A model generated the notes under the pieces. The model was given only the letters and a program-made list of their open reading frames with translations. It did not search any database and was not told where the DNA came from. Shown in pieces: positions 5,101 through 63,989 of a stretch of DNA of 64,000 nucleotides (positions within the stretch are counted from its first letter, which is position 1; the number at the start of each line of letters is the position of its first letter). The position numbers and the translations under genes are program-made. The DNA comes from Ulva prolifera (lineage: Eukaryota > Chlorophyta > Ulvophyceae > Ulvales > Ulvaceae): assembly GCA_023078555.1 (NCBI GenBank), contig CM041202.1, forward strand, positions 3,902,022 through 3,966,021, given 5' to 3'.

Positions 5101-5106
5101 TCCCAC

Positions 5107-7015: not shown

Positions 7016-7035
7016 GCCTTTGTAAGATCATGACA
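7016..7035 (+). repeat. 20-bp direct repeat, copy 1
   Basis: GCCTTTGTAAGATCATGACA occurs here, just after the gypsy-1 pol end, and again at 7683-7702. Placement at the pol end suggests LTR or insertion-site sequence, but no LTR boundary could be fixed. Confidence 0.5.
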
Positions 7036-7127
7036 TGAATGTCGTGGCCTAGCTATGTAACTGAGCCATGCTCGTTGCTAGCATTGCTCGAGCCAGCGCA
7101 GCTAGGCCTGCGCGCAAATGCACTCAC

Positions 7128-7276: not shown

Positions 7277-7299
7277 CTGAGAACGAAATTAAAATACTA

Positions 7300-25188: not shown

Positions 25189-25441
25189 TGAGGTGAGCGT
25201 CATGGACGGCGTTGAGGAACAACATCCGCTGCCAACTGCCGCGGCGGGAGCAGCTGCCCCGCCGCAAGGTGACGCAATTGATGTTGGGGGACCCTCCCTT
25301 GACATGCCCGGGTTTGGCCAAGCTATGGCTAGCCGCCTGGGTCCGGGGGAGGAATTCATGTTCAGTTCAAGAGGCGGATTTGTCCCTAGGGGAGAGGTAA
25401 GGCAACCTACCTGTCGTTGGAGAGTCCATGCATTCTGCTAA
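24953..25441 (+). pseudogene. copia-1 integrase-RT linker in +1 frame
   Basis: Reads IDMRPVTRSRAQQGR and then an acidic, Pro/Ala-rich stretch to EEFMFSSRGGFVP. It is the part of the polyprotein linker that copia-2 encodes in a single frame. A second shift near 25400-25440 leads into the RT frame. Two small indels within about 400 bp in an otherwise young element suggest base-calling errors or very recent decay. Confidence 0.6.
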
Positions 25442-31385: not shown

Positions 31386-34300
31386 CTACGTCTCCACTAG
31401 CTGGAGTTTATTACGAACTTCTAGCAAAGCAGGTCCGGGCAGCACTTTAGTAAACACATCTGCTAACTGATCGACAGTGCCGACCCATTCTACCTTAAGT
31501 TCATCCATCTGGACATATTCCCGCACTCGCAAGTGCCGCACACGAATGTGCTTGGATCTGTCAGTGGACACAGCATTCACAGCCAAGATATTGGCACTCT
31601 TATTGTCACCCCACAGAGTCGGCTTATGTGGGACGAGTTTCAAATCGAGAAGCAACTGCTTCACCCACATCAACTCGTTGGCTGTTGCACTCATCGCGAT
31701 GAGTTCAGCCTCTGTTGTATCCCCAGCCACTATACTCTGCTTCTTCGAACGCCAGAGAACAGAGTTCCCATACACTCGAATAATCATACCAGACACGCTT
31801 TTCAGATCAGCAGAGTTCGCAAAATCTGCATCTGAAAAAGCTTCTAGCAAACACCCATGTCCCTCAGAGCCTACAAATTTTATTCCTAGATTTTTCGTGG
31901 ACTGTAGGTATCTCAGAACGTGTTGCACGGCAGACCAGTGTTCCTTCAGACTACTAGACATGTGCCGGGCCAGGGCATGTGCCACGTAGCTCAGGTCAGG
32001 TTGTGTCACTCCTGCAATGTACTGGATGCTTCCTACAGCACTCATGAACCTGGAATGCTCAGCAGCACTGGCTTTCTCCAGGTCAGGATGCTCTTTCACA
32101 CTCCTTAGTTGTTGCCGCGGCACTAATGGAGTGGGAGATTTACGACAGTCGGACATGCTGTACTTTTCCAGCAAGTTCTGGATCTTGTTACGTTGTGTCA
32201 TTGTGATTGTTTTGGCTTTTCGATCACGCGTGATCTCAGTGCCAAGTGCCCAAGACAGGTCACCTAAATCTCTGCCTTCAAATTTTGTGAGAATAACAGT
32301 GATTATTTCCTGCAGCCCCGCAGAGCAACTGAAAATAAATAAGTCATCCACCCACAGAAAAATAAAGCACCGATTGGTTTTACTGACATACAGTCCGGGA
32401 TCACTCTGTGCGCACACAAATCCCAGTTCAGCCAAGACCTTTACTAAAGCTTTATGCCACTCGCGAGCGGCTTGCTTCAGGCCATACAGAGTCTTATGCA
32501 ATTTCCATACACGTGCTGTCCCGTCTGAAAAATACGGGGGCTGTTCAACGAAAACCTCTTCCTCCAGGTCACCGTTCAGAAAAGCACACTGTATATCTAT
32601 ATGCCTAATCTCCATATCCTCCTGAGCAGCTATTGACAGCAACACACGCAGCGTCGCATAACTACCGACAGGGGACCATGTCTCAAAGAAATCTACTCCT
32701 TCTACCTGAGAAAAACCACGAGCTACATATCGTGCCTTGTACCGCTGAATCTCACCAGCAGGCCCACGCTTGATCTTGAGCACCCATTTGCCCGAGATAG
32801 CCCGTTTGCCCGCAGGCAGATAGCACAACCCGAAGGTTCCGTGCTCACCCAGTGCATCTACCTCCTCTTGCATGGCACGCAGCCACGCATCCCTGTCTGG
32901 ACCCGCGAGTCCTTCCTTCATAGAAGGCAGATCAGGGTCGGAAGGCTTCTGCTTCCTGGCGGCAGCTGCTCTGCGCGACCCATGACGCTGAGCATTCTGC
33001 TGCTCGCCAGACCCCACATGCTGAGGCTTCAGGCCTGCACAGGACACTCCACAGTCAGCCGCGGCTGATGTGTCCTGATCGCAAGCTGAAACATCAATAG
33101 CAAATTCAACTGTCTTACTGCTAGCAATGTCAGAGCCCGCAGGCTCATGCATTTGTACAGCTGCTACATCCGCAGCCAATGGAACAAGGCGTCTGCGTAC
33201 AAGAGGATTGATTTTAATACGGGGTAAGGCAGCTGGAATGGCCCTCACCTCGTCGGGCAAATCAACCCCAACCGCGGCTGAGGGGTCCGGATCCTCTCCC
33301 CCTAATTCGGACCCGGTCTCCACCTCATCTGGCTCATCCTCCCAGAAGGGCCTCGGCGCCTCAGCTCCTCGCAAGGGCTGAGCAACTGCCCCCGCGCCAG
33401 ATGCTGAGGCCGCTGCCGAATTACTCCCAGAGCGGACCCGCTGAGCCTCCAGATGCTGATGAGCCGCAGCTCTTTCATCATCTGAGACGGTGTAGTCCAT
33501 GCGCTGTTCGTCATCGTCGTCATAGATGCCAGGACTGTCATCATCGGACGGATCCTCCATGTCGTCATCAGACGCACTGACAGACATTCGAATGGGGAGC
33601 GCAACTTCTACACCAGGGTCGTGCAACACAGCATTGCGCGTAACAACATACCGCGCGGTGCGAGAGGGCGTGGCGACAGGATGATACACTTCGCCGGGAA
33701 CACGAGGGGGAGCAGGGACGGCAGGTTGAGCAGCAGCTCTGGACATTGCACGCGTGCGATGCAAAGCTGTTCTGGCTATTTCCGGCGTTGCCCTAGCAGG
33801 GTCACGTCGGATAATCTCCGCAGAGGAGCCAGCTCCAAATCGTGGAGAGTACGCAGTAGGATCAGGGTCAGGGTTGTCCTGCCGGAATGTCATTTCCATG
33901 ACAGGAACCCTACCATGACCAGGGGGGGTGTGAAGCTGGTCACGCAGACGGCGCAACACTCCCCCATCATACGTGTGCTCTGCCGCGAAAGGAGGGACAT
34001 CTGCGTCAGTCACACGCTCACCCTCATCGTCCCCCTCGAAAGCAACCGTATAGGAGTTCGCAAACTCCTCAGGTTCCCTCTTGTCCACAACGGCGGACGC
34101 ATCGTACTTGCGTACGTGCCGGATCATCTGATCCGCAGTGCACATCACCTGACGCACAACAAAAACCCTACCCCCAGGAACGTTCTGGGCGTACACACGC
34201 TGCATGCTGGGGCCTAACCCAGCCCCGACCCAGTATGCAGGCACACCCCGTGGGGACAACTTCCGCAGCTTGTCATCCCTAGGGTATGCATACACTTCAA

Positions 34301-42907: not shown

Positions 42908-44254
42908 TCAATTTTTCATGGCCCATGTGAGGTACGATAGTGTAGATATCATACTTGGCACGAAATCTGTAACGGCATCCATGAGATCTTTCTTAGCCAC
43001 ACAAGACCTCTCGCGAGAACATTTAGTCCTGCGCATAGCAATGCGAGATGCTTCTTTGTAAACACCTTTGAGTTCCGAACAAGTCCAGCCTTCAGAAATG
43101 GACAACAAACCATGAAATTCCAAATTGTCGTTGCATGGCATGCTTTCTGTGCAAGAACTTAGAATTGCAAGCCTGCTACATGTGTCCGGGGGTGGGACAT
43201 ATATTCTTGAATCGAACCTGCCTGGCCGTAACAACGCATTATCAATTCTCCAAGGCTTGTTTGTTGTGGCAATGACAATAATACCTGCACAACTTGCAGT
43301 CAACCTCGTTAGCCTCTGAAATCATGCACATATCTACCGAGTGCATGGCCACATATACAACGGCATAGGGTCCATCAATATAGAATGCACATCCGTCACA
43401 CAACCAAATTGACAGTCACCACTCTACCTGAGCCAAGCTTGCATAAAGTACAATGAACACGAAGCATCGCGTGGAATGATGACCTGCAGCTACTTCGAGG
43501 CCATCCAGCTCCATCAACATGGTGGCTAGCAAAGATGAATTGCGTGCTTGTGACAAGTCCATGTTGCGTGCTTCAAAAAGCATGTCTAAGTCATCAAATA
43601 GCAAAATCGTAGGTGCCGCAAGCCGGGCATGCCTAAAAGTGTGGCTCAATGCGGATTCTCCTACTCCTACATACCTACACCAAAAGCAAGATGGCGTTAT
43701 CCATGCAATGTGAAGAAGCTGCTACCAACGAATCTGCAATCTGACGTCATGCAGATTACCGATTCTGGGAGTGGAAGGCATGTACAAACATTAATCACTA
43801 TCTGGCAGCGGCAGATAGAACCATACATCGAGTGTAATTGGGCAGCAGATAGTGTTATCAAGTTGAACTTGCAGAAAGCTGCTATGCCATGGGCCAAAGA
43901 GGTCTTGCAGCATCCTGATGGCCCATACAATAGAACGCCTTTGGGCACCTTTGCCCCAAGCCTCGCAAAAGTGCTTGAGTGAAGGAAAGGCCACTGTACT
44001 GCTTGCATCACCTGCCTCTTCACAACCTGAACCGGTTGGACACATTGTCAAAATAAAAGGCAGGATGATCAATGTCTCCCTTGTGCATTTACAGAAGGGA
44101 AGTAACATTCCGAGTAGCCTTGTATTGCTTCCCACATGTTTTGTGGAGCGTCAGCATACATGCTCCTCAGAAGCGTGGGTGCCCTAGACATCATAACTGC
44201 ACTGAAATCTTCCGTAGTAACCTGAGCTAATTCTATAGCCGATTCTGTACCTAC
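42908..44254 (-). CDS. AFG2B: AFG2B-like D2 ATPase exons (four)
   Basis: 44254-44093 is the inter-domain linker (TESAIELAQVTTEDFSAVM), acceptor TTGCAG, donor TCT|GTAAAT. 44026-43822 runs from VVKRQVMQAVQWPF to Walker A GPSGCCKTSLA. 43666-43484 covers GVGESALSHTFRHARLAAPT, Walker B ILLFDDLD and MLMELDGLE. 43284-42908 has sensor 1 IATTNKPW, the Arg finger region LLRPGRFDSRIYVPPPD, and the C-terminal helices ending in TWAMKN. Introns are 66, 155 and 199 bp with GT-AG ends. Oddities: the second Pro of Walker A is Ser, the residue before Lys is Cys, and the Walker B Glu is Asp. Confidence 0.88.
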
Positions 44255-47200
44255 CTGCAATCCATTCCGTAAAGGCTTTGCCAATCAGGCATTGTCCGTT
44301 GTCCAGGTGACCATTTGAAAGGGCGACAAGATCATAAGCATCAAGGTCGTCTCATTTGCACCCAGACGCGTTGAGAACATGTGCTATCAATTGTATCCGA
44401 TCGATCCACTTTATCACAGCAGGTCATCCCTGTCACAGCCGCAAGCCCCATTGGCAGATCTGGCACTTTGACTTGCGCGGAGGGGCCTGTCATCTGTGTC
44501 CAGCCAGCAGTCTGGCTGCCTCTAAAGGCCTGGCACTTGGCCATGGGGAAAGCATTCAAGCCGACTATTATGGCTGTTCGTGTGCAAGCTTGCCAAGTGT
44601 AATCACTTGTTGCATCCTTTGTGCCCTAGCTAGTGCGATCGTATGTGCCGTAGTGCGTCATTGAGTGAATGCAGCACCCCAATACCTACATGTGATTGGA
44701 TCTGCAGAAGTGCTCCTGTGGGCTGCTTTGTTGTTAAAAATTATAACCGAGATTGAATGTAGCACACATGGAGACGAGCATGGCCGGAATGTACGCATGT
44801 CGGCATCAGAGTGGTGTGATCCGGCCAGTGTTTAAAATTTCGTTTTAGTGTACATAGCTTAATAAGCTATAGGAGCCCCTCGGCAGTAATTAAGTAATAG
44901 CTTGCTAAGCTATAGGTCCTGTTCACGGGGAATATTGCAATAGCATAACGCTTGTAGACATAACTACTCAATCACAGTGCCATATCGGCCCTTCCACACA
45001 TCAATAGCATCCACAAACGGGAAGGTCTGTAGGGTGAATAGACGCTGTAGCTTCGCACGCATACATAGCTCCAAGTGCGTGTCCAGCCGGTTCCTACGCT
45101 TATTCTTCAAGAAGTCCATTGCTGAGAAGCCACGCTCATCTGTGCTGTCATTGTCGAACTACTAGTGGCGCTCGGTTCAAAGAGATTGGTAAAGCACGCA
45201 TACTGATGGTCCAGAAGATTCAATTTTGCTCGTTTCTTAGCTGGTACTGCTATATCTATTGCTTCCGACTGCTGCACATCATCGTCAGCACTGGCAACAG
45301 GCTGCTCATCGGGTGCACGAATTGCGCCCACGCTGTCGTCTACATCAGCTTCAATGACATCCACAAGTCCGTCTATGCGCTTGCTAAACAGACCTTTAGT
45401 CGCATAATGCTTGGGCAGCTTGGTTTTAGGCGGACGACCTGCCATTGCTAGCCAGGATGCGGGATGCAACAGCAGCCAGCACACCAGCACTTGGAGTGAG
45501 AAGCGATTGTCGGAAGGCTGAATGCATTTCGCAATCGCTTAGCAAGCTATAAGATGTCGCGTGAAATAAATTTTCGCTCGCTTCGCTCGCCATAACGGGG
45601 GTGTCATAATTAGGGTTTATAGCTTAACTTGACTTCAATTTTAATTTTATCGCTTATAAGCGATTTATCGCTGAAATTTTAAACACTGGATCCGGCTCCG
45701 TCAAACCTTGGGGGCACGCCACAAAACGTAGGCCCCAGAACCAGTGAATTTCTTACAAGCGATATATAGTTTACAGGCGATAAAATAAGAATCTCGGAGG
45801 CGAAATATGCGAAAAATCGGCACTTTCAGGCCCCTTCATCGCGAGCGAAGCGAGCGATAGATGAATGCCAACACTCACATATCGCGAGCGAAGCGAATGC
45901 CGAAATAACAAACGCGGTGCACAATCGCTTGCCTCTGCCACGGTAGTTCCGCTTCAGCGAGATGTAGGCTAAGTAGCTGGAGTGAACAACATTGTTGTCG
46001 TGACGCTGCGGGCAGAGATGGGACGCCCCAAGCAGTCCACGCTGCATGGCCAAAATAGTACAGACATCCGGATGCCAATCCATAACCTCCCAACTAAAAC
46101 AAGCAGTTTATACTTTTGATTGTTGCAATCGCTTACTTAGAGGTGGGTACTAAAAGCGTGGGAAAACCGCTGCTCAAAACGGTCAGAACACATACGTGAC
46201 ATCCATAACAGGATTAGTGACGAAAGTGTATTCTTTGCTTGCACGGGCATAAAATTCATTTGTAGCTCGAGAGAGTCATATGGTGGAGCGAAAACGAAGC
46301 AACCCTTGAAACTACCAGCACATAATTGCTCCATCTCTGAAGCAGGAGTGGGTGATCCCTGATCTCCGGATGTAGTGGTGTGCCCAACAATCGGAAACCT
46401 TTGAGCAGATGCGGAGAAAAAGTTTGGCGATGTATTCGACATGATGCACTCAAGTGAGGAAAGGCCTTTGACACAAAACAGGGTTCTCACAATGGCAAGC
46501 TGACGTCACTGAATTTTGCGTTCCCTGTGGGCTTGTACCAATGACTGCAACCTGGAAGCATTCTCTGACATTGGCACTTGTGGACGCGATCGCGCATTCG
46601 GTGTTGTCATCAGTCACTAGGTCGAAGAGCCGAGGCCCCGTAAATCAAACCAACCCATAAGATATAATGCTAGTCAATATTCCTATTTCGGCGATACATG
46701 GCTTAGTAGCAAAAGAATTAATAATTGAAGTCCAACTTGAGCGATGAAAGATAATTATGAAACGCCCACATGCGAGCAAAGCGTTCACGCAATGTCTTAC
46801 GGCTTGCTAAGCAATCGCGAACCGAAGTGTAGCGGGTCGATCATCGCTTGGCAATTCACTCGTTGGGATTCTAGTTGATGCCCCTTGCTTGGTAGCAATG
46901 GCCAGTCACGCGTCCAGTGCCAAGCTGCACAAGCACTATCCGACCCGAGGCCTGTTCAGGGGGGTCTGCACTCGGGACATGCACACGTCCACCTGGAACG
47001 CGAGCCACTCAGACATCGCCCAGGGCCCTGGGCGGTGTCTATGGATTCACAACAACATACTGAATGCACACAGGCGGTCGTCTCACGTCGCTGGGCGAAA
47101 GCAGCCTTTTCGTCAAAAAGCGTATGCATGCCTGGGCAGAATGACCCATTTCGCCCAGGGAGCGCCTACAGCACCCAGCGCGTGCCCAGAGCACGCCCAG

Positions 47201-50200
47201 TGAGCCTAGGACACCCTTATTATGTTTTTTTCACCAGTGGGACGTCATCTTTGATGTTATCGATTGCTGTGGAATGCGTCCTAGCCGTTGTGACTTGTGC
47301 GGTCACGTATTGTCACATGTAGGCAGCTGCTCTGCGCGATTAGAGCGCAATGAAGAATCAATACAAGTGTTTTTCACTCTTGGGGATGGGTTGCTTTGTC
47401 GCTCTGCGGTTGGTTGCTTCAGCGGCTCTGACCCCATTTCGTTCTGGCGTGTCCCGTACATGGCATGGTATACAACAACAGGCTTCAATAGGCGTGCATG
47501 CTTGAATTATGGTACATTCGGGATACCTTCAACGATACCGACAGCTGTGATCGAGGCTGATCAAGCGGCTGTCCACACGATGAAGGTCACTGTATTGACA
47601 CCACATGGATGCAACTGGCCTGGTTGATACATCTGCCATGTTTGTCGAAAATGACAGTATCATTTAGTTGCATCTAGATTGTATTGCAAGCGATGTCACA
47701 TCTGAAGGATGCCAGTCAGGTTATATGCTGATTGCATGGTAGCATTTTGCAAGAGGCAGAACACCGATGCAGTTGACCGTATACTGCTGTGGAAAAGAAT
47801 TCAAAAGAATATTTACGCGAGAAGAACTCAGCATGCACTGTGCGTCACTGTTATGGAATCCTGAACTGCATCCGAGGTGTAGGAAAGCAAGAATGCCTCA
47901 CACAGACTCTTTGTGTGCTTGCATCTGTGACCTGCCACATTACGCCCACTGATGACATCATGATTGACCACGAATCACTCACGTGGATCGGTGCTGGTTG
48001 AAAAGCAATAAGTTATTGCGTAATGCTGAATACATTTGTGTGAAAATTATAATGAACATGCTGTCGCGACCGTCACAGCCGGATTCGCAGCGCCTCCGTG
48101 CCCTCCAAAACGAAGAAGGAGCTGATATACACAGACGAAAATTATGACTGCGATTTGTAGATCGCGCAGGGATCATTCTTGCCGTGGCTTTGATGAGCCG
48201 GTGTACGGCAGCGTACTTTCAATCACTGTGACGGAAGAGCAATGCTGCCTTCCCCACCGAGATTAGAGATCCTGAGCCATCTTGGCTGGTGATTTTTGGT
48301 ATGTGTACGTATATGCTGTGGTCGATTGGAATGATATGTTGCGTTTTTGCTGACACAGCTGTTTTGCGTCTTTGCAAACTCACGAAGTGCAGAAATTGCA
48401 CGCAAGTTCCGGCAGAAACCAACAGCAATGCCAGTCACTTAACTTCACTCAATCGCTGAGTCTGTGGTAGCTAAGCCGGTCTAGGCCGGCGTGGTGTCCG
48501 CTCTCCATGACTGCATCACAGACACGTCGGAAATACCCGCACGACACCGGTTGATAGGTCACTGAACATCGATGAGACATGTTATAGTGTTTTTGGGGTG
48601 TTCTCAACCCACTGTGCTCACTGGGCGTGCGCTGGGCGCCAAACCCGCGTCCATGGGCGAAATCAGCATTTGGGACGAAAACAGGCCTTTCCCTGGGCAC
48701 CTTTCTACGTTTCGCCCAGGGACCACCTGTGTGCATTCAGTATGTTATTGTGAGTCTATAGAAACCGCCCAGGGCCCTGGGCGATGTCTGAGTGGCTCGC
48801 GTTCCCGGTGGACGTGTGCATGGCCCGAGTGCAGACCCCCCTGCCTGTTCGTCAAGCGCCTTGACGCCCGTGCAGATGTCATGGCTGTAGAAGTAGACGA
48901 ATCTACGAATGCTGCACCCTTTAAGCAACCTTCTGCTCATACTGAGAATATGCTCGGTGCGCAATAGCCGGAAAATGAGGAAACCGGGCCATCTTAGAAA
49001 CGCGCGAAATTGAATCTGAAGGACAGTATGTATGCTTTTTTTGCGAATATGTCCTAACCGGTCGCCACAAGTGGAACAGCACTAGCTCAGCCTGCTCGCG
49101 TGAAGTGCATGATCTGCGACGCCCAGCCGGGCACACTGTCGAGTCTCATGCTCAGCAAGTGAGTCTCGACCCTCACCTCGCCGGCACAGCGTATTTGAAG
49201 GCTGTGGATATGGTGATTGAGTTGAAATGCTTAGCAGTTGCAACATTCTGAATCTAGCTAACGTATATAATAGCAAGCAATAGCTTAGGTTACTTCTTTA
49301 CCATCCCACTGGTTACTAAGTAATATCCATTCAAATCAAATCAAAAACACTGATGCTGGCACATTGTGTCAGGCCTGGAAGTTCCGCCAAAGTTGTATTC
49401 ACAGCAGCTTACTCATTGAAGTTGCTTTGTGAACTACCATCCAAAAGAAGCATTTAAAGCGTTGAAGGCCCACATTCCAAATAGCTATTGGATGTGATTC
49501 AGATCTGTTCCTCAAGTAACAGGTGTTGACCGTGTCGCCCTTGCCGTTGTATACTAGCGCTAGCGACTCGGGCATCCCAGACGGCCCCACACTTGACTGC
49601 ATCACTAGGGTATGACGCTTATGCGCGATGACTGCATCACCTACTGAAAAATCTGCTCGATGAAAAAAAAATGACCAAAAATGTAACAATAGGTTTTTGT
49701 AAGCAACGCTTTGGAAATGGGCTGTTTAAAGTGCTTTGGGCGCTTGGAGACTGACTCGTTTTGTGCATTCTTACACTCTTATGGGCCGTAGTTTTAACAT
49801 CTGGGGGGCATGACTTAACGTTAACTAACTAAGCTCAGTTAAATAAAAGTGAAATAGGATTAAAAAAAAAAGCTTGACTTAAAACGTGTTTTAAACTAGT
49901 GTTTTGCTGCTTTACTAGTAAAACTGTTAAACATGTCGAGGAGGCAGTTTCCACACACGCACGGCACACGCACGGCACAAACACGGCACAAACACGTCCA
50001 CAGCAACCTAGACACTGATCAACTTGCTAACGATGGAGATGCTCCTAGGCTGTCAGCCTGTAGGCCACATGCTACAGCACCCTTGGTCTGGCACAGCAGC
50101 TCTTCCTCATACACTTCATCAACAAACCCAAGCAGATTATCCAAGCATCGAATTCGACAACAGCTGCCTCATTATCACCTAGGCAATGGAGGTTCATTCT

Positions 50201-53200
50201 GGTGTACACTGTCGTTGCCAGCGGCCAGCGTACTGTACTTCATTGACCTTCTCTTGGCGGTCAAGTTGTCTCCGAAATTCCACAGCCTCTCTACAGCTGT
50301 AGAGGAGGGCTTCGCAGACATCATTTAAATGGCAGCCTCTCTAGGCCGCGGCAAACGTTTCAACAACACCAAGAGACGCAACATCAGTCGCATTTGGCTT
50401 TCTGCGCAGACTGGAGCCACCAACATCTGCCGAATCAGCCAGATTTGCCTCATCAGAACTTTCAGTCTCTTGCAGAGAGTCAGCAGGACGCTTGTCTTGT
50501 GCCATGTCTGGAAGTTGCTCACTGCCAAATCAACGACCGGTGCACACGTGCTATGGAAACTGACTCCCACAGCATGAGCAAGCGCATAACGGCACAGATT
50601 TAAGTACTAAGAGCCAGCAACAGGTGTGCTGCGAGTATATCATAGCCACCGTGCTTTGCTAATGACATCTGTCCTATGAGGTCAAAGCCATCTGAATACA
50701 GCCCTTTTTGGCTTCAACTTTGACTTTAAAACACTCATAAAGTTAAAATAAATAACTCAAATAAAAGTAAAATGACCTCTTTAAATTGTTGAAATCGAGC
50801 AAAACCGCTTTAACGATCAACAACCTGCTTATTTGCACATACGACCAAAATAAAAGAAATCGTTGGGAGAGCTCCTTACGCCGCATGTACACCCAAAGTC
50901 CTGATATCTTGCGCTGGGTCCTTGCACTACAACAGGGTTGGGTAATCCGGCCCCGCTGAACAAAAATAATTTTTTCGGGCCCAATTCGAAAAACCTGGAT
51001 GAATACCCCGATCTGGTTCGAGCTAAAATGAGCTGCAGTGACAGGTTTAAACGCGTCATGTGATAAAGAACCATGGTTGCGGGCTGTGGCAAGTCTTATG
51101 TTGACAAAGCCGATCTGTGGACATTTGTATGTGTGGCTTAAAACTCGCCATGGACCGGCACATGACCACAGGCACCAAGCGATGCATGATTGCGCAAGAT
51201 TGCACAGCTCATTCTGTTATAATAGAGTGCATGAGCGCAAAACTCGAGATTTGCGTCGAATAGCAATACTGACCGTGTTCTCGTGAAGGAGCTCGCACGG
51301 GTGAAAGCAAGCCTCACTTGGCTCGCGAGCAACGAGAGAAAGCCATAATGCGTCCACAAGTTGCGTTACGTATCAGAACAACCTTTAAAAATTGGTTCAG
51401 ACGCGCGGATGCAGTGAACTTCCGTGTTGTCAGCCTGCAATAAGGCTGCTCACATCCATGCAATAGCAGCAATTGATCGGATTTATTCTGCTGATATCAT
51501 AATTAATCACCTCAAACGCAACACTTTGATTGTCGCACTTCATCAATGTTTCTGGTGTCAATAATGTGGCGTTCATAGCATTTCAAGGGCTTTTGCTCGC
51601 CCAAAATTTTTTAATTGGCGACATCCCCCAGATGAACAATCCTTGTTGGGGTTTGTGCAGCACATCATGATTTATCGAGCCCGATCCCGAAGATCCCGAT
51701 GTCGGGGGATCGGGGCCTCGGGTTGAAGGCCTCGGGATTTGGGGCAACCCTGTGACTCCAGATCACATCAAGCGCCTGACTTGTCAACATCATGATGCGG
51801 TCTCCAACGCCTTCGACAAGCTCGCTGAGGAGCTAGGCCGGTGTTGTGGCCTAGTCAACACCATGTAACATGAGCATGCGCACGTCGGGAACTGTGAGCA
51901 TACTAGACTTTGCAAAGAGATTGAGGACTTATGCCAATGATATGAATGAAGCGCAATGACGTGCTGGCTTCGTTGGCCCATGTTGGTAGAGGCAGACCGA
52001 AGAATGAACCAATTTACAGCTTACCCGGGTCGCTACAGTCCGGGAATTTGGCGACTCCACTCTTGTGGGATCGCCACGCGTATTCTGTCACAATACACCT
52101 TTAGCCACCCATAGCACATGGCACCAAGTACTTGGACTAATAAATACAACAACTTAGCTGCACTACGCGATTATGCATGGATACATGCTTCAACTCTGTA
52201 CCATCTATCAGACGCAGAGGATTTTGGATAATGTTAGGCACATGGCAATACACGACCAACATGACTGATTTCAGCCTTGCCGAAGGGCCTCATCAGATGT
52301 CTGCGTGATTCAAGCAATCAAGCCCGAATCAGATCACGAGTTCCCCTGAGATTCAGCCCTCGAATCTCGGGCCTTGAGCTGTGAAGCAGTTCAGGTTCAG
52401 CACATACAGCAGCATAAACTCTTTGGACTACCTTGACCACCGTAAGCGCTCCTCAACCATTCAGAGTACACCATTCGCGGTCATGCACCACTTGGCCCGG
52501 CGTGGCTCCTCACATAACGGCTTTTTGTACCCTCTTTCATACGCTATATTTGTATGCGCGTCGCGACGTGCAAGGGTCCAGTTGTATAGCGGTATTATCA
52601 CAGGACTGCAACAACCATCAATAAATCATCAATACGTATGCCGAGCGCTTGTTCAAACTGGCATGTTTCGGAGTGATTTGGTGGGGGCGCCCCCCAAACC
52701 TGCATCACCTTTGTCACAAGAGTCTTGTGCTGGACTCTCGCTACATGCGCGTTTGCCTTCCCTGTTATCTCTCATTGTTGCCTAATTAACCCATGATTTG
52801 TGAAGCTTACAGCCCGCTGCATGATCCTCACACAGCATTCACAAACTCCGCTGTCCGGCAACGCCGAGACCTAAACAAGACGCCAGGACCTAAACATTTG
52901 TTGTGATGGCAGTATGCTCGGGTTGCCTGGCAACCCTCTCTTCGCCTGGTTCGCTAGCCCCTGGAGGGCTGACATCTGCATACTTCATGCGTGGAATAAG
53001 GATCAAGTGTACTCACTACATGATCCAATAGCTACTGTACCATTCAGAGCATCCATGTTGTATGCTGACGCCTGTGCGCACCCTTGCTGCATGTATGACG
53101 TGCAGTGTGTCGGGCAGCGCACTGTCACCGGTGCATGACATGAATGTGATGTCGTGCATAGGCATGGCATGCACTGACATGCTCACAGTAGTACCTGCAA

Positions 53201-56200
53201 CAGCTCCCGCCTCCACACTTTACCTTCTTTCCCTCTGTGGTCCACGTCGGCCGCGTTTACTTCTGGGCCTGGATGATGGGCATGCGTGCGCGGCTCCGCG
53301 ATAACACATCGGCCACCCTGGACGGCCTCCTCAACGCTGCCGGCTCCCTCGCAATCTGGCTCGATGCGTCGCATCTCGGCTTTTCGGCTGAGCGCAGAGC
53401 AATTCTGGTCTTCCACCCTGGCATCCTGGAGGACGACTTCTATGCGGGCAGGGATTTGTTTCTACGCCTCCTGGCAGCTGGGTGACGTGGTGTTTGGTGT
53501 GTCCCTAATGCAGCTGTTTTGTAGTCTACTGTGATTGTCTGTCGTTTACCCTGATAAGTTTGGTGTGCTTGGCTGTCCGTCCCCCCCCCCCCCCCCCCCC
53601 CCCTCCTGCCACGAATATTGCCACCTAGGATTTCTTTCTTTTCCTGAGTTTTGTGGGCAGTTGGCCTACTTGGTCATGCGGCTGCTTCCGCACGGGGTGG
53701 AGGTGCTGCGGAGGTGCCTTTGGCATGCATTGCCCACGTTGGTGGGCGGCGTGATGTGCCTTATCCCGTTATCTGATCCCGTGCCGGATTTCTGAGTCCT
53801 GGACGTTTCTTCTAGTCTCAGTCAGTCTCGCTCTAGATTCTGAATACTAGGGAACTTGCGACCAAGTTCGGTGTTGGTTGCTTGAATCACGTAGGTGTCT
53901 GATGAGGCCCTTTGGCAAGGCCGAAACACGTTATGCCAGTCCGTGAAGTTCATGTAATACAGCATCAGCCAGTAAACTTTCTACCTCAGTACATAGTACA
54001 TATGTCAGATACAGCACATAGTATCCATGGGATTTGGTTTGTCCATCAATGGATCCGTGCAACGGAGACCTGTTGCACCAGGAGTCAAGACACATGGAGG
54101 GTGACTTATTTCAAACCCTGCAAGGCCCAGCTACATGAGTACTGTATGGTGGATATGTACGAAACCTGCCACAGGGTGTTCTACTGACCCTCAAACGCAC
54201 CGAGGCTCCAGTGCAATCAATCCAATCCCAGACACTATGGACATGGACATGGACGTGAGCGCCATCATGTCCAGGGGATTCTAGATTCGTACTATCGACC
54301 ACAAGCTTGTGATGTGACGGGACAATTTCAGGAATTCCAAATTTTCTGTCTCCTCGCATGTGCCCCATTCTTCACAACACATGCTGAATGCATAGTCTGT
54401 GTGTTACGTGACGCGACAAAGAGTCATGGAAGCGTCCACTGGGCATGTATATCTGGCCTTGTCAAGCCTGATGGCGGCGGCAGAGGGTGATGGCGGGTGT
54501 TTGTTGGCACTCGTTGTGCCGCATACCACCTCTGGACACCGCGCACCAATGTGACCCATGTCCACCCCTCCGGACGTGGGTCGACACTTGCCGAATGCCA
54601 ATGAAAGTGTAGGGCAGAACAGACTCTGCACTACAATTTTCATGAGTCTTTGTCTTTTCAGTTGCTCTAGAATGGTAGCGTTAGTAGCCACTCTGTTTTC
54701 AGACGCAATTGAGACAACCGATGAACACGCCCTGGGTTCATGGCAGCGTGCTTGCCAACAACCAGTTCAAAGCAGGGATCAAAGCAAGGGTCGAGATCCT
54801 GGCGCTACGATTTAAAATAATTTGATGTTGGAAAATAGCCTCGGATGTGTGCAACTTGTGCATTTGATATTCAGCCACACGAAGCAGATGACATAGATGC
54901 AGATGACATTCAGACATTAGCGGCAGCAGTGCACTGAAATCATGTGTCACCCGGTAGTACCTGCCTGACGAGAAATCCCCATGCCACATTACTGAGCTGT
55001 ACATGACCTGGCACACGAGAATGACCTACCTGTCAAGCATTGTACTCACTTCTCTTCACTTTTACCTACAACTTGCACTGGCAGGATTGCATGGCTTCTT
55101 CACATAGGTATCCCGGATGTTAGTGCAAGAAGCAATAAGCAACAAGGAATTTGATCCTACACAGCACACGTCCTGCAGAATTTTTTTGCAAGTTAATTTT
55201 TTTAAGGTTCAAATGCATGGACCACACCACTGGATTTCGATGAGATGATGCCATGCAAGAGGCCAAATAATTCACACATGCATGATCATGCTGTAACCAT
55301 CCTTCTGTTTCGGAATCCGCCATTCACAGAGATGCTCTTGAAGTACTCATGCAGCTAACACAGTTACTGCCATGCCTGTGATAGTGAGGCAGGGTCATGA
55401 CATCATTGGTCCAGAGTTGAACCCTTATCACTCCCTTGCTTTAAGGCTGACATCTGGCAGCTGAAGGCAGCCAGTGGCAGCTAAAGTGACACTGCGGCGC
55501 CCCAACCATGCTTTCGGACTAGTTTATCTTGACGCAACTACTGTTTACATCGCACACAAATCTTAATTGTGTGAAGATTGCAGAATCCAACATCGAAGAG
55601 GCAGCGGGGCCGACAGGAAAAGTATGGAGGGCCAGCCCTTGGATGAGCTCTGAGAGTCCATCATGTTGATCACGATAACATGGATCAACTTGCCACATTG
55701 CAGCACAGGAAAACGACACAATACATCAGAAACGAATCTCGTCCGAGCAAATGAGTACGAGCAACCACAAACTCTGTATGCAAGACCAATTGATACTCTT
55801 GGGCGTTTGGTGCGCTTGAGAGTTCTGGGGCCACGATGTTGATGATGGGGCAGTGTCCTGCCCTGACAATGCGACACAACACGCCACTTTCAATTTCGAC
55901 CGTCACAATGGCTACGATACGGCACCAGCTTCGCACCCTGTGCCATCGTCCATCTGATGCATGGGAAGTTTTGATACGCACATCGTCCTCAATACGACTT
56001 TGAGCACTGCTGCATCACAACGGGTGATGCAAACCATGGTGTACAAAGTCCACATCTTTCGGTTGATAAACAATACCATTTGAAAATGCCGGTACGAGTC
56101 ACCATGTCACCATACCTACTTTTTTTTGCGCAACTTGCGCCAGTGACAGCAGCTATGCCAGGCAGCAGAGTCTGATACATGCGCGCAACACAAATGCAGG

Positions 56201-58490
56201 TGATTTTGAAAGCATCATGAAGACACAACTGCCTATGCCCACATGAACGCGCACATATGATGCAGGCATTCGCATACTCGACCTCATGCATCATAGCTTC
56301 TATTGCAGCCCAGAGGCGGCTGACTGACACCTCTGTCACATGTCTGTGGCTGCATACGTGTGCCCGCTCCAAGCCACATGAAATATCTGCTCAAATCCAC
56401 CATAACCATCCGCTGCTCTCCATGTATGTAAAGTAAGTTTGGTTGTGTGCATTGGTAGATGATAGGGTAAAAGGGCTCCGCACTGCATTGCTCGCAACAT
56501 CATATAGTGCCTTCAGTGCTACCTCAGAGCCCAGCGAGTGCAGATCAGCGCTTGTATAACCTTGACAGGAGGATGCAATGCCTTCAAGATCCACTCCGGC
56601 AGCAAATGAAAAGTTTTGCATGATTCTTTCTAAAATGTAAAGTCTGTCCAGCCGGTCAGGAGGAGGGACAAATATCTCCAGATCAATGCGGCCAGGCCTT
56701 CGCAAAGCTGAATCCACCCCAGTCAGCAAGTTGGTGGCTGCAATCAGTCTGCAGCAGCATATTCTTTCAGTCTGCAGCACCACGTTATGCGTTTTTGTAG
56801 ATGTTCCTGTACAGTGCCATAACCCCCGGTCATCACTCCCGCACCGCATGATCCCCTAAAAAAGGAAACGCCTAGTCTGCCACCCATGACGCAAAACATT
56901 TGCTTCGGGAAATTTACTGGAGGTGTCACAAGGGAAGGCACGACTGATGCTGTCTCAGTGTGTGACAGCACACCTGATGGCAGGATTTGTGACGTCAGAG
57001 CCATCAAGCAGAGTGAGAAGCTGAGCCACCAGACGAACCTCATGAACACTTGCATGGCTTCGTTGAGGACAGATCGCATCGATTTCATCAACGAAGATGA
57101 CGGCGACCCGTCCGGACGGCACATTGCAAGCCTTCTGGAACGCACGACGCAGCACGCCCTCGGATTCGCCCAAGCTGGACTTAGCTAGGTCAGCCGCTTT
57201 CAGCTCAAGCAAGACTGCACCTGTTTCTTTTGCAGCCATCTGCATGAGACAGCCATGTCGTACACGGCGGGCGCAGTTGAAATTTATCATGGCAGGTTGA
57301 TGTGATGATCAGCATCAGGAACAAGGCATAAGTACGAGCTGCCTGCATTGAGCATCCACTGCATCACATTGTGATCGAGTGTGGAACGCTGTCAAACGCT
57401 GTCAAAAGCCGTGACAGCTATGTGATGTGTTGATCACCAGCACAGCACACACGGGTATATCTTGTGCGTCGCTGATTAATACAGGATCGCCTCAGAAAAT
57501 TCATAATTTGCCAACCTGGACGAGACTTGTTTTGCCAACTCCAGGTGGGCCATGCAGCAGACAGCCTTTGCGCCAGCCTATTCCCAGCGTCGAGCTCTCC
57601 GCACGGTACTGATGGGGCCAAGCAAGGAACTGTATCAGCTGTCGCTTCACGGACTGCTGCGACATCAGATGTAACAGTCGAAGATATCAGCCGGCAACAC
57701 TGGTCGAGCAAGTACACGTATGGTTGAAGCGCGAAAGGCAGCCAGGTACAGCACCATAACACCTGCAGTAGGAATAAATGATATGGGCCAATTTGAATTC
57801 GCTTGCCGGCTTGATGGACTTGTGTTTGACCGAGTCTAAGTGTGTTCCAAGGACAAAAGCAGTACGACACGCATGTGCTACGTGGGCTCTGCTGGCGAGA
57901 CATGCAATCGGGCGACGTATATGCAAATGCCGCGAAAATATGGTGGATTTGACCAGCGTGGGGGACTGCAGAATGTGGTGTGGGGAGGGTAGTGAGGGAG
58001 GGAACGGGAATTCGAGGGTGGTCAATATTTGCACCTCGAACCCACCGTCTCTTGCATACAGCTGCATTTGGCCAATAAACGTGCGTGTTTAAGGAGAGAC
58101 CGTCGTCGTTCGTTCTAAATTCGTGGCTCCCTCCGCGCACCGCGCAGACTGTTGTCGGCGAATTGCAGTACGCAAACCTGGATAACAGTTTCTGGAGACA
58201 TTGTCGCAGTGGATCGCAGCTGGGGTTGTGCACGCCTCCAATTTGCCATTTGAAGTCTCGGTGACGTTTTCCGTCGTTCACTGCGATGCGTCAACAATTT
58301 GCTTAGTTTCACGGGATTCCGGCCATGTTGCACACGCTTGCTTTGCAACTTTCGCAGTCAATCGGACATCCCGATGGCCGATAGCGCCGGCCACGCGATT
58401 TGCCCGAAATGTCCGAATTTCATCGCGATGCCGGTCAAGGGGAACACTCTTGGTCACAGAAGCTCCATTCCCCGGACCGGCGCCAGCGCA
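42908..58490 (-). CDS. AFG2B: AFG2B/SPATA5L1-like double AAA ATPase (spliced, 12-kb intron)
   Basis: Exons joined by eye with consistent phases: 58490-58282 (tentative N domain), 57656-57516, 57239-56974, 56748-56484, 44254-44093, 44026-43822, 43666-43484, 43284-42908 (stop at 42908). D1 has Walker A GPPGVGKT, Walker B VIFVDEID with CPQR, and sensor ATN. D2 has GPSGCCKT, LLFDDLD and ATTNKPW. The RIYVPPPD...LAILSSCTESMP stretch and LLTLLDG fit the SPATA5L1 branch better than CDC48 or NVL. Family members act with AFG2A in releasing shuttling factors from pre-60S ribosomes (established for AFG2 proteins; inferred here). The N-terminal start and the link between N domain and D1 were not resolved. 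Confidence 0.85.
44826..45688 (-). mobile_element. non-autonomous hAT element, TSD GATCCGGC
   Basis: 863 bp. 16-bp perfect terminal inverted repeats CAGTGTTTAAAATTTC. 8-bp target duplication GATCCGGC at 44818-44825 and 45689-45696, the hAT signature. Interior encodes ends of a transposase (next entries). Sub-terminal TAGCTTGCTAAGCTATA palindromes on both sides. Confidence 0.95.
44960..45490 (-). pseudogene. internally deleted hAT transposase
   Basis: 45490-45107 starts MAGRPPKTKLPKHYATKGLF (from the ATG within), a basic N-terminal segment, followed by an acidic linker. In another frame, 45135-44960 carries STDERGFSAMDFLKNKRRNR, the hAT C-terminal dimerisation signature (SSxxxER.FS....I.TK.RNRL). 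The DDE-type catalytic core between them is missing, so this is a deletion derivative that would need a transposase in trans. Confidence 0.8.
45750..46135. repeat. hAT-related fragment beside the TSD
   Basis: Shares GCGAGCGAAGCGAGCGA palindromes with 45577-45600 inside the hAT element. Possibly an older relative. A - strand frame 46083-45826 is not recognised. Confidence 0.35.
46945..47200 (-). repeat. dispersed repeat family A, copy 2 (partial, inverted)
   Basis: Reverse complement of the 3' half of 48403-48845: GGGGGTCTGCACTCGGGACAT, ATCGCCCAGGGCCCTGGGCG, TTTCGCCCAGGGA. Confidence 0.75.
48403..48845 (+). repeat. dispersed repeat family A, copy 3
   Basis: Full-length relative of 12383-12850. 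Contains the palindrome GCCCAGGGCCCTGGGC near 48769 and GTTTCGCCCAGGGACC near 48710. Confidence 0.78.
50175..50505 (-). pseudogene. second hAT-like transposase fragment
   Basis: Two short - strand frames. 50505-50341 reads MAQDKRPADSLQETESSDEA and ends in AAA-stop. 50324-50175 reads MMSAKPSSTAVERLWNFGDN then LTAKRRSMKY, matching the hAT C-terminal motif (P.S...VERLFS...LT.KR). No terminal repeats were confirmed around it. Confidence 0.55.
52251..52311 (-). ncRNA. hammerhead ribozyme-like motif 2 (type I)
   Basis: On the - strand: stem I distal CACG/CGTG, proximal GACAT (52301-52297) with ATGTT (52262-52258), core CTGATGA (52296-52290), stem II GGCC/GGCT around CTTCGGCAA, core GAAA (52272-52269), short stem III, predicted cleavage between 52263 and 52262 (after TC). 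All invariant core bases are present. Confidence 0.8.
53210..53485 (+). CDS. unrecognised protein-like ORF upstream of hammerhead 1
   Basis: Open to the stop at 53483. Reads VHVGRVYFWAWMMGMRARLR, LDGLLNAAGSLAIWLDASHL, FSAERRAILVFHPG and ends RLLAAG. Composition is GC-rich and protein-like, unlike its neighbours. It could be the C terminus of the protein of the hammerhead-bearing element, whose 3' end would then be the ribozyme region 400 bp on. No family recognised. Confidence 0.35.
   Translation, partial: PPHFTFFPSVVHVGRVYFWAWMMGMRARLRDNTSATLDGLLNAAGSLAIWLDASHLGFSAERRAILVFHPGILEDDFYAGRDLFLRLLAAG
53581..53603 (+). repeat. poly-C tract, 23 bp
   Basis: 23 consecutive C. With runs at 10231-10242 and 31065-31099, it is one of three long C runs in the window. 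Confidence 0.95.
53884..53951 (+). ncRNA. hammerhead ribozyme-like motif 1 (type I)
   Basis: Stem I distal TCACG (53887-53891) with CGTGA (53942-53946); proximal GGTGT (53894-53898) with ATGCC (53933-53937); core CTGATGA 53899-53905; stem II GGCC/GGCC (53906-53909, 53919-53922), loop CTTTGGCAA; core GAAA 53923-53926; two-pair stem III; predicted cleavage after T53932. The very short stem III is like those of Penelope-like elements and retrozymes, which act best as dimers. Confidence 0.82.
54000..56400. other. intron sequence without recognisable elements
   Basis: Part of the 12.2-kb intron. No clear coding stretch, repeat or RNA seen. Confidence 0.3.
56484..57656 (-). CDS. AFG2B: AFG2B-like D1 ATPase exons (three)
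   Basis: 57656-57516: QSVKRQLIQFLAWPHQYRA to GPPGVGKTSLVQ, donor CAG|GTTGGC, acceptor candidate with tandem CAGCAG. 57239-56974: MAAKETGAVLLELKAADLAK, GESEGVLRRAFQKA, VAVIFVDEIDAICPQR, LLTLLDG, donor CAG|GTGTGC. 56748-56484: LIAATNLLTGVDSALRRPGR, IDLEIFVPPPDRL and the helical lid YTSADLHSLGSEVALKAL. Introns 276 and 225 bp. D1 catalytic motifs are intact. The last donor (GCA|GTGCGG) is weak; the true end could differ by a few codons. Confidence 0.88.
58282..58490 (-). CDS. AFG2B: AFG2B-like N-domain exon (tentative)
   Basis: Open 70 codons with VPLDRHRDEIRTFRANRVAG, DVRLTAKVAKQACATWPES and KQIVDAS. The LD...RT.R..P/V.....G..V.....A.CTAWP pattern matches the double-psi N domain at the start of SPATA5L1. 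Donor CA|GTGAAC at 58281. No ATG in frame after the TGA at 58491-58493, so a short upstream exon is needed. Confidence 0.5.
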
Positions 58491-61601: not shown

Positions 61602-63989
61602 TCACAGCGGGGGGGCAGCATCAGCGCACATGCGCTTTGCGGACTCAGTCCGCATCCTACCACAACAACTGCGGTAGGTGGCCCTGGAAAGTGCTGCCTT
61701 ATGGGATTCGCTCAACCGAGAACTACGTCTACGCGGTTTGCGTTTGGTATCGCCGATGTTGCTGCCACCCGCGGGCACCTTCCCCCCAGCGACGGGACGC
61801 CTGGTGGACTCAGCCTTGGCTGCTATATGGGACAGTTGTAGCCGCGCTTCACGCGGAAACTCATGATTCATGTGCGCTCTCTGAGTACTGGAGGCATTGT
61901 GGAACAGATAATCGGCAACTTTCTCCAGGCATCCGGACAACTCATCAACTGGTAACCAAGAGTCATGAGATGCATCGTAGCCAACCCAGCGCACCAGGTA
62001 GTGAGGGCACGCGATGGAGATGTCGTTATCGCGATGCCGCGACTGCATGTCATTGACTACACATTCAATTTCATAAGTGGTCGTGTCCACAGTGGCCGAT
62101 GACTTGGCAGCTTCAGGGCTGGTGGCGCATGCAACATCGAAGGACTCGTTGTAAGGTTTCAGCACAGAGAAGTGAAAGACATCATGTAGACCTAGGCGTT
62201 GCAGCGTGGTCGGCAATGATATACGGGCAGCGGCCCGGCCCACTACCAGAATTTTACAGGGACCCAACCAGCGCGGAGTAAACTTCTTTCGGAGAGATGG
62301 ATGATGCAGAGCAACCTTACGTATAGATAGCAGGACCAAGTCACCCACAGAAAAGGTTGGCCAAGCAGATTTCCTGTTGAAATCCGACCACATTGACTGC
62401 TTGGCCTCTACCAGAGCTTGCTTTGCTAGGAAGTAGTACATGCGGTGCATCACGGCTGGAGCTGGTTGCTGATGCTGTGGCAATTTGAACGCAAGGGCTG
62501 TGGGTGACAGTGGCGGAGTGATACGGTTCAATGAGAACGGCGTGCAGCCCGTGGTTGCCGACTTGGAGCTATTCATGCTGAACTCGATATGTGGCAGGAA
62601 TGCATCCCAATCATCATGTGCAGGACCGATGAAATGCCGAACAGCTTCTTCCACAACGCGATTGTACCGCTCAACTTGCCCATTGGCTCTAGGATGGTAG
62701 GAGAATGTCAGCTGCAATGTAATGCCTAGGTGATCACAAAGGGATGTGAAAATTTTATTGTTCCACTGCGTACCGCGGTCACTACAAATGCCAAGTGGCA
62801 GGCCATAATGGGGGTATATGTGCTTGAAAAACAATGCAGCGAATCCGGGACCATTCAGAGTAGACACTGTGGGGATCAATCTTACCATCTTGCTGAATTG
62901 ATCAACAAACACAACAATGCAATTGTGACCCGACGTGGAGTTAGGCAGCTGCGTGATCATGTCTACACTCACGACACTCCAGCACGCAGAAGGTACAGGT
63001 AGTGGGGACATGACTGCCTCCCGCTCCGACGGGGACTTCAGGGTCTGACAGCTATGGCATTGTGACATAATTTTTTTGACATCCTTGTGTATATCTGGCC
63101 AGTAGAATGAGTCTGTGATCAATGATGCTGTGCGAGAGACACCCATGTGTTCATGCCAGGGGTGTACGTGGTGCCACAACAGAATTTGCCGGCGCAAGTG
63201 ATCATGATCAGGGACAACAATCTTGTTCTTGTGCAGATGAATCTGGTGCTTAGGGTCGTAATGGTATGATGCAGGTGGCTCGGCAAAATCAGAATCATGT
63301 GCATAGCCACTACGCAATCGCTGCCAGAAGTCGTCCGCGTGCAGATCTAGAGTCAAGTATCTGTTGGATTGTTTCAGAAGCAGCTCTGCTTGTGAGTGCG
63401 TACCCACACGCTGTGCGTCGACTGCGCGGCCGTCACACACCAGGTCCTCCTGGTCGACCCAGTCCACCGCGGAAGCATCCGGCTGCGCGGTCGCTACGTC
63501 GTCCTCACGCGCGGGCTGTTGGTGGAGGGGTGAGGCCGAGGAATTCGGCCTCCTCCGCTGTAGGCGCGAAGTCAATGTCTGACATTGGAGATGGGGTGCG
63601 GAGGCAACCAGGAGCGGTCGCGGAGAACGGCGGCGGGTCGGCGTTGGCATGGGCCGGCGGGGAAGTGGGGATGGGGGCGGTGGCAGCGCTGGCGGAGATC
63701 CCGTTGGCATCAACACCGGGGACCGCTGAGACCCCAGCTGCTCGCCCATGCGGGGGCTGGACCCCGAGCTGATGGAAATCACTGATGGCGGCGGCTGCGT
63801 GGGCCGCCGTGGGTCCTGTGGCTGGGACAGAGGTGGAAATTGCGACTGGGAACGCAGGTCTGGCATGGGTGGGGACAGGCCGGGCGGGGGTGAACCGAAC
63901 TTCTCCCGTAGCCGGGAGTAGTCGCAGGGCTGGGGAGAGATTGTTGGCAACGTCTGGTGGTATGGGATGGCCTGATTCATCGGCGACAT
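61602..63989 (-). CDS. gypsy-3 integrase-chromodomain (partial pol)
   Basis: 795 codons, open to the window edge (the real start is upstream). Residues 1-200 are Pro/Ser/Arg-rich linker. Integrase HHCC is at about 270-320 (LLWHHVHPWHEHMG, CHSCQ); catalytic residues lie in SVDMITQLP, CSDRGTQW and YHPRANGQVERYN; the C-terminal block has FSVGDLVLLSI, FTPRWLGPCKIL and FHFSVLKPY. A chromodomain is at about 640-700 (TYEIECVVND, HYLVRWVGYDASHDSWLPVDEL) with the aromatic cage residues largely present (Y, W, W). It ends with a basic RRRSSRLSES tail. Chromodomains target integration to histone-methylated chromatin (established for chromoviruses). Confidence 0.94.
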   Translation of the reverse strand: MSPMNQAIPYHQTLPTISPQPCDYSRLREKFGSPPPGLSPPMPDLRSQSQFPPLSQPQDPRRPTQPPPSVISISSGSSPRMGEQLGSQRSPVLMPTGSPPALPPPPSPLPRRPMPTPTRRRSPRPLLVASAPHLQCQTLTSRLQRRRPNSSASPLHQQPAREDDVATAQPDASAVDWVDQEDLVCDGRAVDAQRVGTHSQAELLLKQSNRYLTLDLHADDFWQRLRSGYAHDSDFAEPPASYHYDPKHQIHLHKNKIVVPDHDHLRRQILLWHHVHPWHEHMGVSRTASLITDSFYWPDIHKDVKKIMSQCHSCQTLKSPSEREAVMSPLPVPSACWSVVSVDMITQLPNSTSGHNCIVVFVDQFSKMVRLIPTVSTLNGPGFAALFFKHIYPHYGLPLGICSDRGTQWNNKIFTSLCDHLGITLQLTFSYHPRANGQVERYNRVVEEAVRHFIGPAHDDWDAFLPHIEFSMNSSKSATTGCTPFSLNRITPPLSPTALAFKLPQHQQPAPAVMHRMYYFLAKQALVEAKQSMWSDFNRKSAWPTFSVGDLVLLSIRKVALHHPSLRKKFTPRWLGPCKILVVGRAAARISLPTTLQRLGLHDVFHFSVLKPYNESFDVACATSPEAAKSSATVDTTTYEIECVVNDMQSRHRDNDISIACPHYLVRWVGYDASHDSWLPVDELSGCLEKVADYLFHNASSTQRAHMNHEFPREARLQLSHIAAKAESTRRPVAGGKVPAGGSNIGDTKRKPRRRSSRLSESHKAALSRATYRSCCGRMRTESAKRMCADAAPPL

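Follow-up and report, generated by a model that had tools for sequence, protein, structure and literature searches.

We analysed a window of 64,000 nucleotides (nt) from the green alga Ulva prolifera (contig CM041202.1, positions 3,902,022 to 3,966,021 of the forward strand), in which two hammerhead ribozyme motifs, A and B, lie inside a gene for an AAA ATPase (Table 1). The p97-type matches are collinear along this gene, with pieces delimited by homology and not by splice sites, and both hammerheads sit where ~12 kb separate the second coding piece from the third, B in the sense orientation and A antisense. An earlier note on this DNA, hereafter the original prediction, had placed the motifs in a host-gene intron, and the ATPase homology that flanks them on the minus strand supports this location. 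On sequence grounds, A and B each form the 3'-terminal part of a separate, 5'-truncated copy from a Penelope-like retrotransposon family with permuted domains, that is, with an N-terminal GIY-YIG endonuclease and a C-terminal reverse transcriptase (RT). Within the intron they are probably decaying passengers with no function needed by the host.

Table 1 Features of the window around the two hammerheads (window positions; ORF, open reading frame; UTR, untranslated region).
Feature	Position	Strand	Details
Hammerhead A with extended stem I	53882..53954	+	Stem I: proximal 5 bp, internal loop TA/AGTC, distal 5 bp
CTGATGA core, hammerhead A	53899..53905	+	
Stem II, hammerhead A	53906..53922	+	GGCC/GGCC with 9-nt loop CTTTGGCAA; then GAAA
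2-bp stem III, hammerhead A	53926..53931	+	ACACGT; the palindrome ACATGT is the family majority
Predicted cleavage site, hammerhead A	53932..53933	+	Between GTT and A; position in hammerhead alignment
Hammerhead B	52241..52313	-	Stem III: A-U plus U-G
Predicted cleavage site, hammerhead B	52262..52263	-	Between GTC and A (cut 52263/52262); position in hammerhead alignment
Copy A of retroelement, 5'-truncated	53193..54000	+	About 100 last RT-protein codons (one stop), 3' UTR, hammerhead, 3' tail; BLAST to longer copies -706 to +101 relative to core start
RT C-terminus remnant, 82-aa ORF	53237..53485	+	
Copy B, old diverged 3' fragment of same family	52241..52361	-	Inverted repeat; BLAST -65 to +27; model match 52241-52313
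Host gene, AAA ATPase (CDC48/AFG2-like)	43823..57248	-	Pfam AAA and p97 chain matches
Host coding pieces (p97 chain residues)	57248-56970 (256-337); 56747-56505 (343-423)	-	Homology
Host coding pieces (p97 chain residues)	44227-44111 (445-483; weak, E 0.41); 44020-43823 (486-551)	-	Homology

Both motifs contain the type I hammerhead core, CUGANGA...GAAA. In A, the proximal stem I is formed by GGTGT (53894-53898) and ATGCC (53933-53937) on the plus strand. In B, GACAT (52301-52297) pairs with ATGTT (52262-52258) on the minus strand, and CTGATGA occupies 52296-52290. The full CTGATGA...GAAA core and the spacing to the cleavage site are as originally claimed for both motifs. The claim of a GGCC stem II with a 9-nt loop stands for both loops and for the GGCC/GGCC stem of A, while the stem of B is GGCC/GGCT with one G-U pair. 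A and B are the arms of one 86-nt inverted repeat with 78% complementarity, and this similarity indicates that they are related copies and not independent inventions. Their inverted arrangement, which had been singled out as unusual, needs no special explanation, as they are two copies of differing divergence from a family whose core has 128 matches genome-wide.

These matches (71 + 57) were found in the 88.9-Mb genome with a 28-nt core pattern allowing up to three mismatches, and the reversed control pattern gave 0; the genome search suggested along with the original prediction thus uncovered a dispersed family. The looser pattern CTGATGAGNCC(N9)GGNCGAAAC, in which the second stem II pair and the loop are free, had 60 exact genome matches (control, 0), and every one of the 50 that were listed comes from the same family as A and B. 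Within the limits of a 9-nt loop and this stem II outline, the genome appears to hold one hammerhead family of the A/B type. We built a covariance model from 34 copies, hand-chosen from 46 distinct sequences with 12 truncated or rearranged ones left out. In the window it matched only A (95.3 bits) and B (63.9 bits), both of which are among the 34 and are favoured by this. Among 66 distinct sequences, stem III reads ACATGT in 45, and the triplet before the cut is GTT, GTC or GTA in 52.

The longest copies of the family encode a 996-residue protein (ORF at 5078-8068 of locus L031 and 5100-8090 of L048). A protein search of the genome, with 51 matches listed, yielded three long uninterrupted copies of 990 residues or more (C1:3503477-3506464, C8:5478999-5481980 and C3:5666799-5669786) and a broken copy on C5. 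In the L031 protein, Pfam detected GIY-YIG (PF01541) at residues 92-174 (E 3.7e-8) and no match to RVT_1. A relative, P0002, shares 42% identity with the element protein over the RT region and 39% overall; it carries GIY-YIG at residues 76-158 and RVT_1 at residues 726-864 (E 8.1e-6, under Pfam's own cut-off). The RT-like motifs FDVKNMF, MGG..SPA and Y.DDG, as well as a CxC pair between the two domains (C440/C442), are invariant in all four aligned proteins, three of which are near copies. A CxC motif between endonuclease and RT is a criterion for Penelope-like elements with an N-terminal endonuclease, and green-algal elements with this domain order are called Chlamys. Between L031 and L048, the ratio of nonsynonymous to synonymous divergence (dN/dS) is 0.22 at a dS of 0.21. 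From the domains, the motifs and the intact ORFs, we take the family to be an autonomous Penelope-like element with the endonuclease first. The Penelope-like origin suspected in the original prediction is therefore borne out by coding copies that combine GIY-YIG and RT-like regions with a 3' hammerhead, and its alternative, a retrozyme, is not supported, since the element encodes a protein. The coding element, a second subfamily and a conserved 142-nt 3' end, which carry the functional argument below, were beyond the view of that prediction.

In the protein database, with 8000 candidates scored per search, only P0002 and P0001 (99%) were found, and a PDB sequence search with the element protein returned no match. 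P0001 derives from a European Nucleotide Archive (ENA) record whose longest contig, at 4120 nt, is close to the element length and which has the same protein at 99% identity.

All three intact copies contain one type I core about 400 nt past the stop codon. The core starts 399 nt after the ORF in L031 and 395 nt after it in L048, and the C3 ORF also has a core on its 3' side (C3:5666358, one mismatch in loop II). The predicted cut falls 64-70 nt ahead of the 3' end where insertions terminate. Covariance model R1 found one hammerhead each in L031, L048, L033 and L034 (9.9 kb each) and two in L050, which owes the second to a later 3.37-kb segmental duplication. Inside L031 and L048, no end is repeated in the manner of a pseudo-LTR (long terminal repeat), although tandem arrays may exist elsewhere.

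The 3' end of the element is far better conserved than the rest. L031 and L048 differ at 23 of 360 positions before the ORF, 243 of 2991 in the ORF and 36 of 350 in the 3' UTR up to -45, compared with 1 of 144 in the last stretch (at -44), so that the final 142 nt (-43 to +98), ribozyme included, are identical. The C3 copy is 99% identical to L031 over 157 nt of the 3' module region and 91% identical over 887 nt of the 5' part. In addition, the family comprises two subfamilies with stem I GGCGT/ATGCC and GACAT/GTGTC, respectively, the second pair being G-C in one and A-U in the other. Between their majority sequences, taken from 16 and 6 hand-chosen copies, none of 28 core positions differs while 17 of 60 flanking positions do (Fisher p = 9e-4). 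The copies were retrieved by the core pattern with at most two mismatches, which favours conserved cores, although a subfamily with one or two core changes would still show. The case for function is thus drawn from the core, the identity of the 142-nt module and the subfamily comparison, and not from stem I of A versus B. The 128 copies, the coding element and the common core of two subfamilies also lead us to reject chance or satellite sequence with no ribozyme history, an explanation to which we give next to no credence even though Rfam scores are near background.

The insertion pattern is that of a retroelement copied from its 3' end. The aligned loci have a common right end ~98 nt past the core, while their left ends are scattered over upstream distances that range from a few nt to over 3.7 kb. 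Among 22 copies outside the window that were chosen for clean ends, 16 are flanked by target duplications of 9-20 bp and the other six by repeats of 5-8 nt only; 14 of the 16 duplications start with CA. When the left and right ends of different copies were paired as a control, at least 9 nt were shared in 12 of 462 cases. The junction repeat of copy A in the window is 6 nt only. The fixed 3' end, the scattered 5' ends and the target duplications together look like the outcome of target-primed insertion in which 5' ends were truncated. The protein remnant of copy A (tblastn, C7:3955210-3955500, window 53189-53479) corresponds to residues 897-995 at 80% identity with one TAG. Its 3' UTR also contains a run of 23 C (window 53581-53603).

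Only two copies have ATGCCGG not preceded by T. One (C5:5607359) lies where the 3' end of the broken C5 copy is expected, and the other, L090, starts exactly at the predicted cleavage site. In a by-eye comparison with the core matches listed, 21 of 60 exact tails lacked a core at the expected place. Since the copies run on to ~+98 with no excess of starts at the cleavage site, they seem to be made from uncut RNA. The start of L090 would suit a ribozyme that produces the insertion template or a circular RNA in the manner of retrozymes, releasing unit-length RNA from tandem transcripts, and the type I hammerheads of animal retrozymes are described as acting so in PMC7229834. We regard this explanation as very unlikely for the Ulva element, because the copies extend past the cleavage site to the fixed end without clustering at it, and because L031, L048, L033 and L034 have one hammerhead each, the pair in L050 having arisen by later duplication.

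Our preferred reading, at a probability of about 0.7, is that this domain-permuted Penelope element uses its hammerhead and tail as one protein-bound RNA module, that cutting does not serve to make the template, and that the window copies are passengers. The hammerhead and the tail would form a single RNA module bound by the element protein, which would cut the DNA at CA and start reverse transcription at the tail. Reverse transcription would then run through the hammerhead in its unfolded state, and such read-through may explain why the copies contain the hammerhead. The folded hammerhead, probably in pairs of RNAs joined via the self-complementary stem III ACAUGU, would cut the element RNA between H17 and stem I. 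This cutting may shorten transcripts that read through or run in tandem, or remove template once it is spent, instead of making templates for insertion, and within the protein-bound module cutting and copying would be mutually exclusive.

It is also conceivable, though in our view unlikely, that the conserved 142 nt serve only for protein binding and priming, as a tail in which the hammerhead-like core is part of the binding structure and no longer cleaves. The identity of the entire 3' module, beyond the core, between the two intact copies fits such a tail, as do insertions apparently made from uncut RNA and the insertion of an anole element in vitro with no need for cleavage (PMC11167929). 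This explanation does not account for the core bases being kept between subfamilies while the flanks change (0/28 versus 17/60), or for the triplet before the cut staying GTT, GTC or GTA in 52 of 66 sequences.

The original prediction rested on stem I, and there its observation was confirmed: four of the five proximal pairs differ between A and B, with pairing kept throughout. Only the second pair (G-C to A-U) is altered on both sides, the other three being one-sided wobble changes. If GGCGT/ATGCC undergoes four transitions at random, all five pairs survive in 51 of 210 cases (24%), compared with 1.9% for four random substitutions; given this survival under transitions, the comparison of A with B is weak evidence by itself. 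Across the 34 sequences, 90.8% of cells are paired overall (proximal stem I 91.8%, distal stem I 81.8%, stem II 98.5%, and stem III, with 2 bp and a 2-nt loop, 95.6%). Double changes occupy 12 cells, a number attained by none of 500 shuffles that keep relatedness, and eight of the 12 are A-U for G-C at the second stem I pair. In a tree with stem I masked, a nine-row subfamily 2 holds six of these eight A-U cells, and B and L064, both on long branches, group on the side of subfamily 1. On this poorly resolved tree, the second-pair double change would amount to one to three events in the family and is not decisive. The covariation was accordingly overstated as strong evidence for selection.

Another explanation would have the host keep A and B as intronic ribozymes acting on the ATPase pre-mRNA. 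In its favour, B runs in the same direction as the intron, and all three of its helices (proximal stem I, stem II and the 2-bp stem III) are able to pair. Against it, A is in antisense orientation; in B, stem II is closed by a G-U pair, stem III is weak and the core is tied up in the best fold. Both sit on decayed copies of a 128-member family whose stem I pairing would be retained with 24% likelihood under transition-only decay. We saw no sign of a host role and find one highly improbable.

Several results weigh against the protein-bound, cleaving module that we prefer. A slid control (+3) also gave 12 double-change cells, and the number of pairs with a double change (four) was matched by 68 of 500 shuffles. 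The hammerhead was the minimum-energy fold in none of five sequences and the double hammerhead the best dimer in none of five. No insertions in excess start at the predicted cleavage site among the genome tails and core copies, the single L090 start being background, and GTT is not the preferred cleavage triplet. The Rfam hammerhead models, put forward earlier as a check on the motifs, returned no match in the window at the gathering threshold, the best being a near-background hit to Hammerhead_3 (16 bits, E 8.4); low covariance scores, one of the outcomes that the original prediction had named as refuting it, are thus what the Rfam models gave. We think that this reflects a limit of the models, which presumably expect a longer stem III. 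The Hammerhead_1 profile had no match over the genome and none in the control genomes either, which makes that search uninformative. Model R1 found no hammerhead in L051 and L052, the loci in which two full-length copies begin, and no other 3'-end repeat was present in the ~450 nt upstream of these two 5' ends. AlphaFold, run with four sequences, reached a predicted local distance difference test (pLDDT) score of 39 and did not confirm an RT fold. Finally, the identity over 142 nt could stem from recombination instead of constraint.

Folding energies do not separate the structures in favour of the hammerhead. In the four sequences folded against shuffles, z was -0.5 to -1.0. For subfamily 1, the double hammerhead has an energy of -38.2 and two hammerhead monomers have 2 x -16.7, compared with -41.0 for the two best monomer folds and -49.1 for the best unrestricted dimer; the double hammerhead lies below the hammerhead monomers and above the best alternatives, so folding alone does not favour it. 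In the best fold of B, stems I and II are retained and the core CUGAU is paired with AUCAG. A 2-bp stem III is unlikely to be stable alone and is plausible only in a dimer or bound by protein. The minimum-energy alternative fold of subfamily 1 was also tried on the 34 sequences and rejected, with 86.2% of cells paired (hammerhead, 90.8%) and six double-change cells (hammerhead, 12). In the alternative fold, pair 14-27 does not form in nine sequences; in the hammerhead, eight sequences have A-U in place of G-C at pair 14-55.

The element resembles the known Penelope-like elements with an N-terminal endonuclease (Chlamys of green algae, Naiad of animals) in having GIY-YIG before the RT with CxC between them, 5' truncation, inverted tail fragments, a CA-type target and a chlorophyll a/b host. 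The genome contains 38 matches to the chlorophyll-binding protein family, and an 84-residue piece of one of them is most similar to the LHCI proteins of entry 9vfj and next to chlorophyll a-b binding proteins, so that a host of the green lineage is likely; rbcL had no match in the assembly. This clade is said, in the 2021 abstract of Craig and colleagues, to be without canonical hammerhead motifs. The Ulva element differs in having a full core 3' of each of its three intact ORFs. Small type I hammerheads of Penelope elements reportedly cleave as dimers (Lunse and colleagues, 2017), and the Ulva family likewise has a very short stem III, which in its case is self-complementary. In PMC7761336, hammerheads of type I whose helix III is weak are described as often cutting as dimers but not as monomers.

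The anole element PAc belongs to the canonical Penelope/Poseidon elements, which have a C-terminal endonuclease and minimal type I hammerheads. According to PMC11167929, its hammerhead cuts within the ORF, 26 nt from the start, reverse transcription begins at 111-118, the ribozyme cuts only with protein, and cleavage mutants still insert in vitro. Copying from uncut RNA in the Ulva element fits the insertion by these mutants, and cleavage is apparently dispensable for insertion in both systems. In both, the cut lies a short way upstream of the start of reverse transcription, at 85-92 nt in PAc by our own arithmetic and 64-70 nt in the Ulva element. The two differ in domain order and in the place of the hammerhead, which lies in the 3' UTR past the ORF in Ulva and at the junction of pseudo-LTR and ORF in PAc; in the Ulva loci compared, no pseudo-LTR was seen, and the hammerhead has only 2 bp in stem III and a longer stem I that is interrupted by an internal loop. 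Animal retrozymes share a type I hammerhead in dispersed repeats (PMC7229834 and PMC7761336). In the latter source they are non-coding repeats of ~150-300 bp, in contrast to the Ulva element, which is coding, exceeds 4 kb and has one hammerhead, and the role of hammerheads in Penelope elements is called unknown in that review.

In the open-access literature, whose coverage leaves out the primary papers on this clade and on Penelope hammerheads, we found no report of a hammerhead in a domain-permuted Penelope element. Hammerheads are known to recur in Penelope elements; what appears to be new is that an algal element with permuted domains carries one of the Penelope type. A hammerhead that is conserved between diverged intact copies, just before the apparent start of reverse transcription, makes the question of its role testable. 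Either the ribozyme dates back as far as the Penelope elements themselves, or separate captures placed it at the same position. We put forward only tentatively that the hammerhead and tail already formed one module in ancestral Penelope elements, before the endonuclease switched between the N- and C-terminal ends. In both kinds of element this module would lie a short way ahead of the start of reverse transcription and pair two template RNAs by its palindromic stem III, and the element protein would switch it between cutting and being copied. Hammerheads whose stem III has only 2 bp can escape Rfam, and absences in the N-terminal-endonuclease clade therefore need rechecking.

A few copies have rearranged ends or cores. 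Among 90 aligned rows, 12 (L001, L004, L013, L017, L041, L057, L058, L061, L065, L078, L083 and L086) start no more than 13 nt from the 5' edge of the core, a density that seems higher than in the stretch upstream of it; eight of the 90 are second fetches, L071-L088 mostly reach less than 31 nt upstream, and the 13-nt range was picked after seeing the data. Reverse transcription may stop or jump at this edge. The core is duplicated or inverted inside the copy in L017, L057 and L083, as if the template had switched at the ribozyme. In L050 (2479-9220), the duplicated hammerhead-carrying segment of 3.37 kb is in tandem at 99.97% identity. The sequence common to L051 and L052 starts at positions 452 and 455, respectively, with a 33-nt inverted tail piece directly before it in L051; inverted 3'-tail fragments thus adjoin full-length copies on the 5' side in L051 and on the 3' side at C3:5666263-5666292.

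Elsewhere in the window, we observed coding regions of Copia-type LTR retrotransposons at 21433-27341 and 31389-36944, the second being a single ORF of 1852 residues. ORFs with RT/RNase H and integrase of the LTR-retrotransposon type lie at 3121-6747 and 61605-63989; one of these integrase ORFs has a PHD finger near its start and the other a chromodomain near its end.

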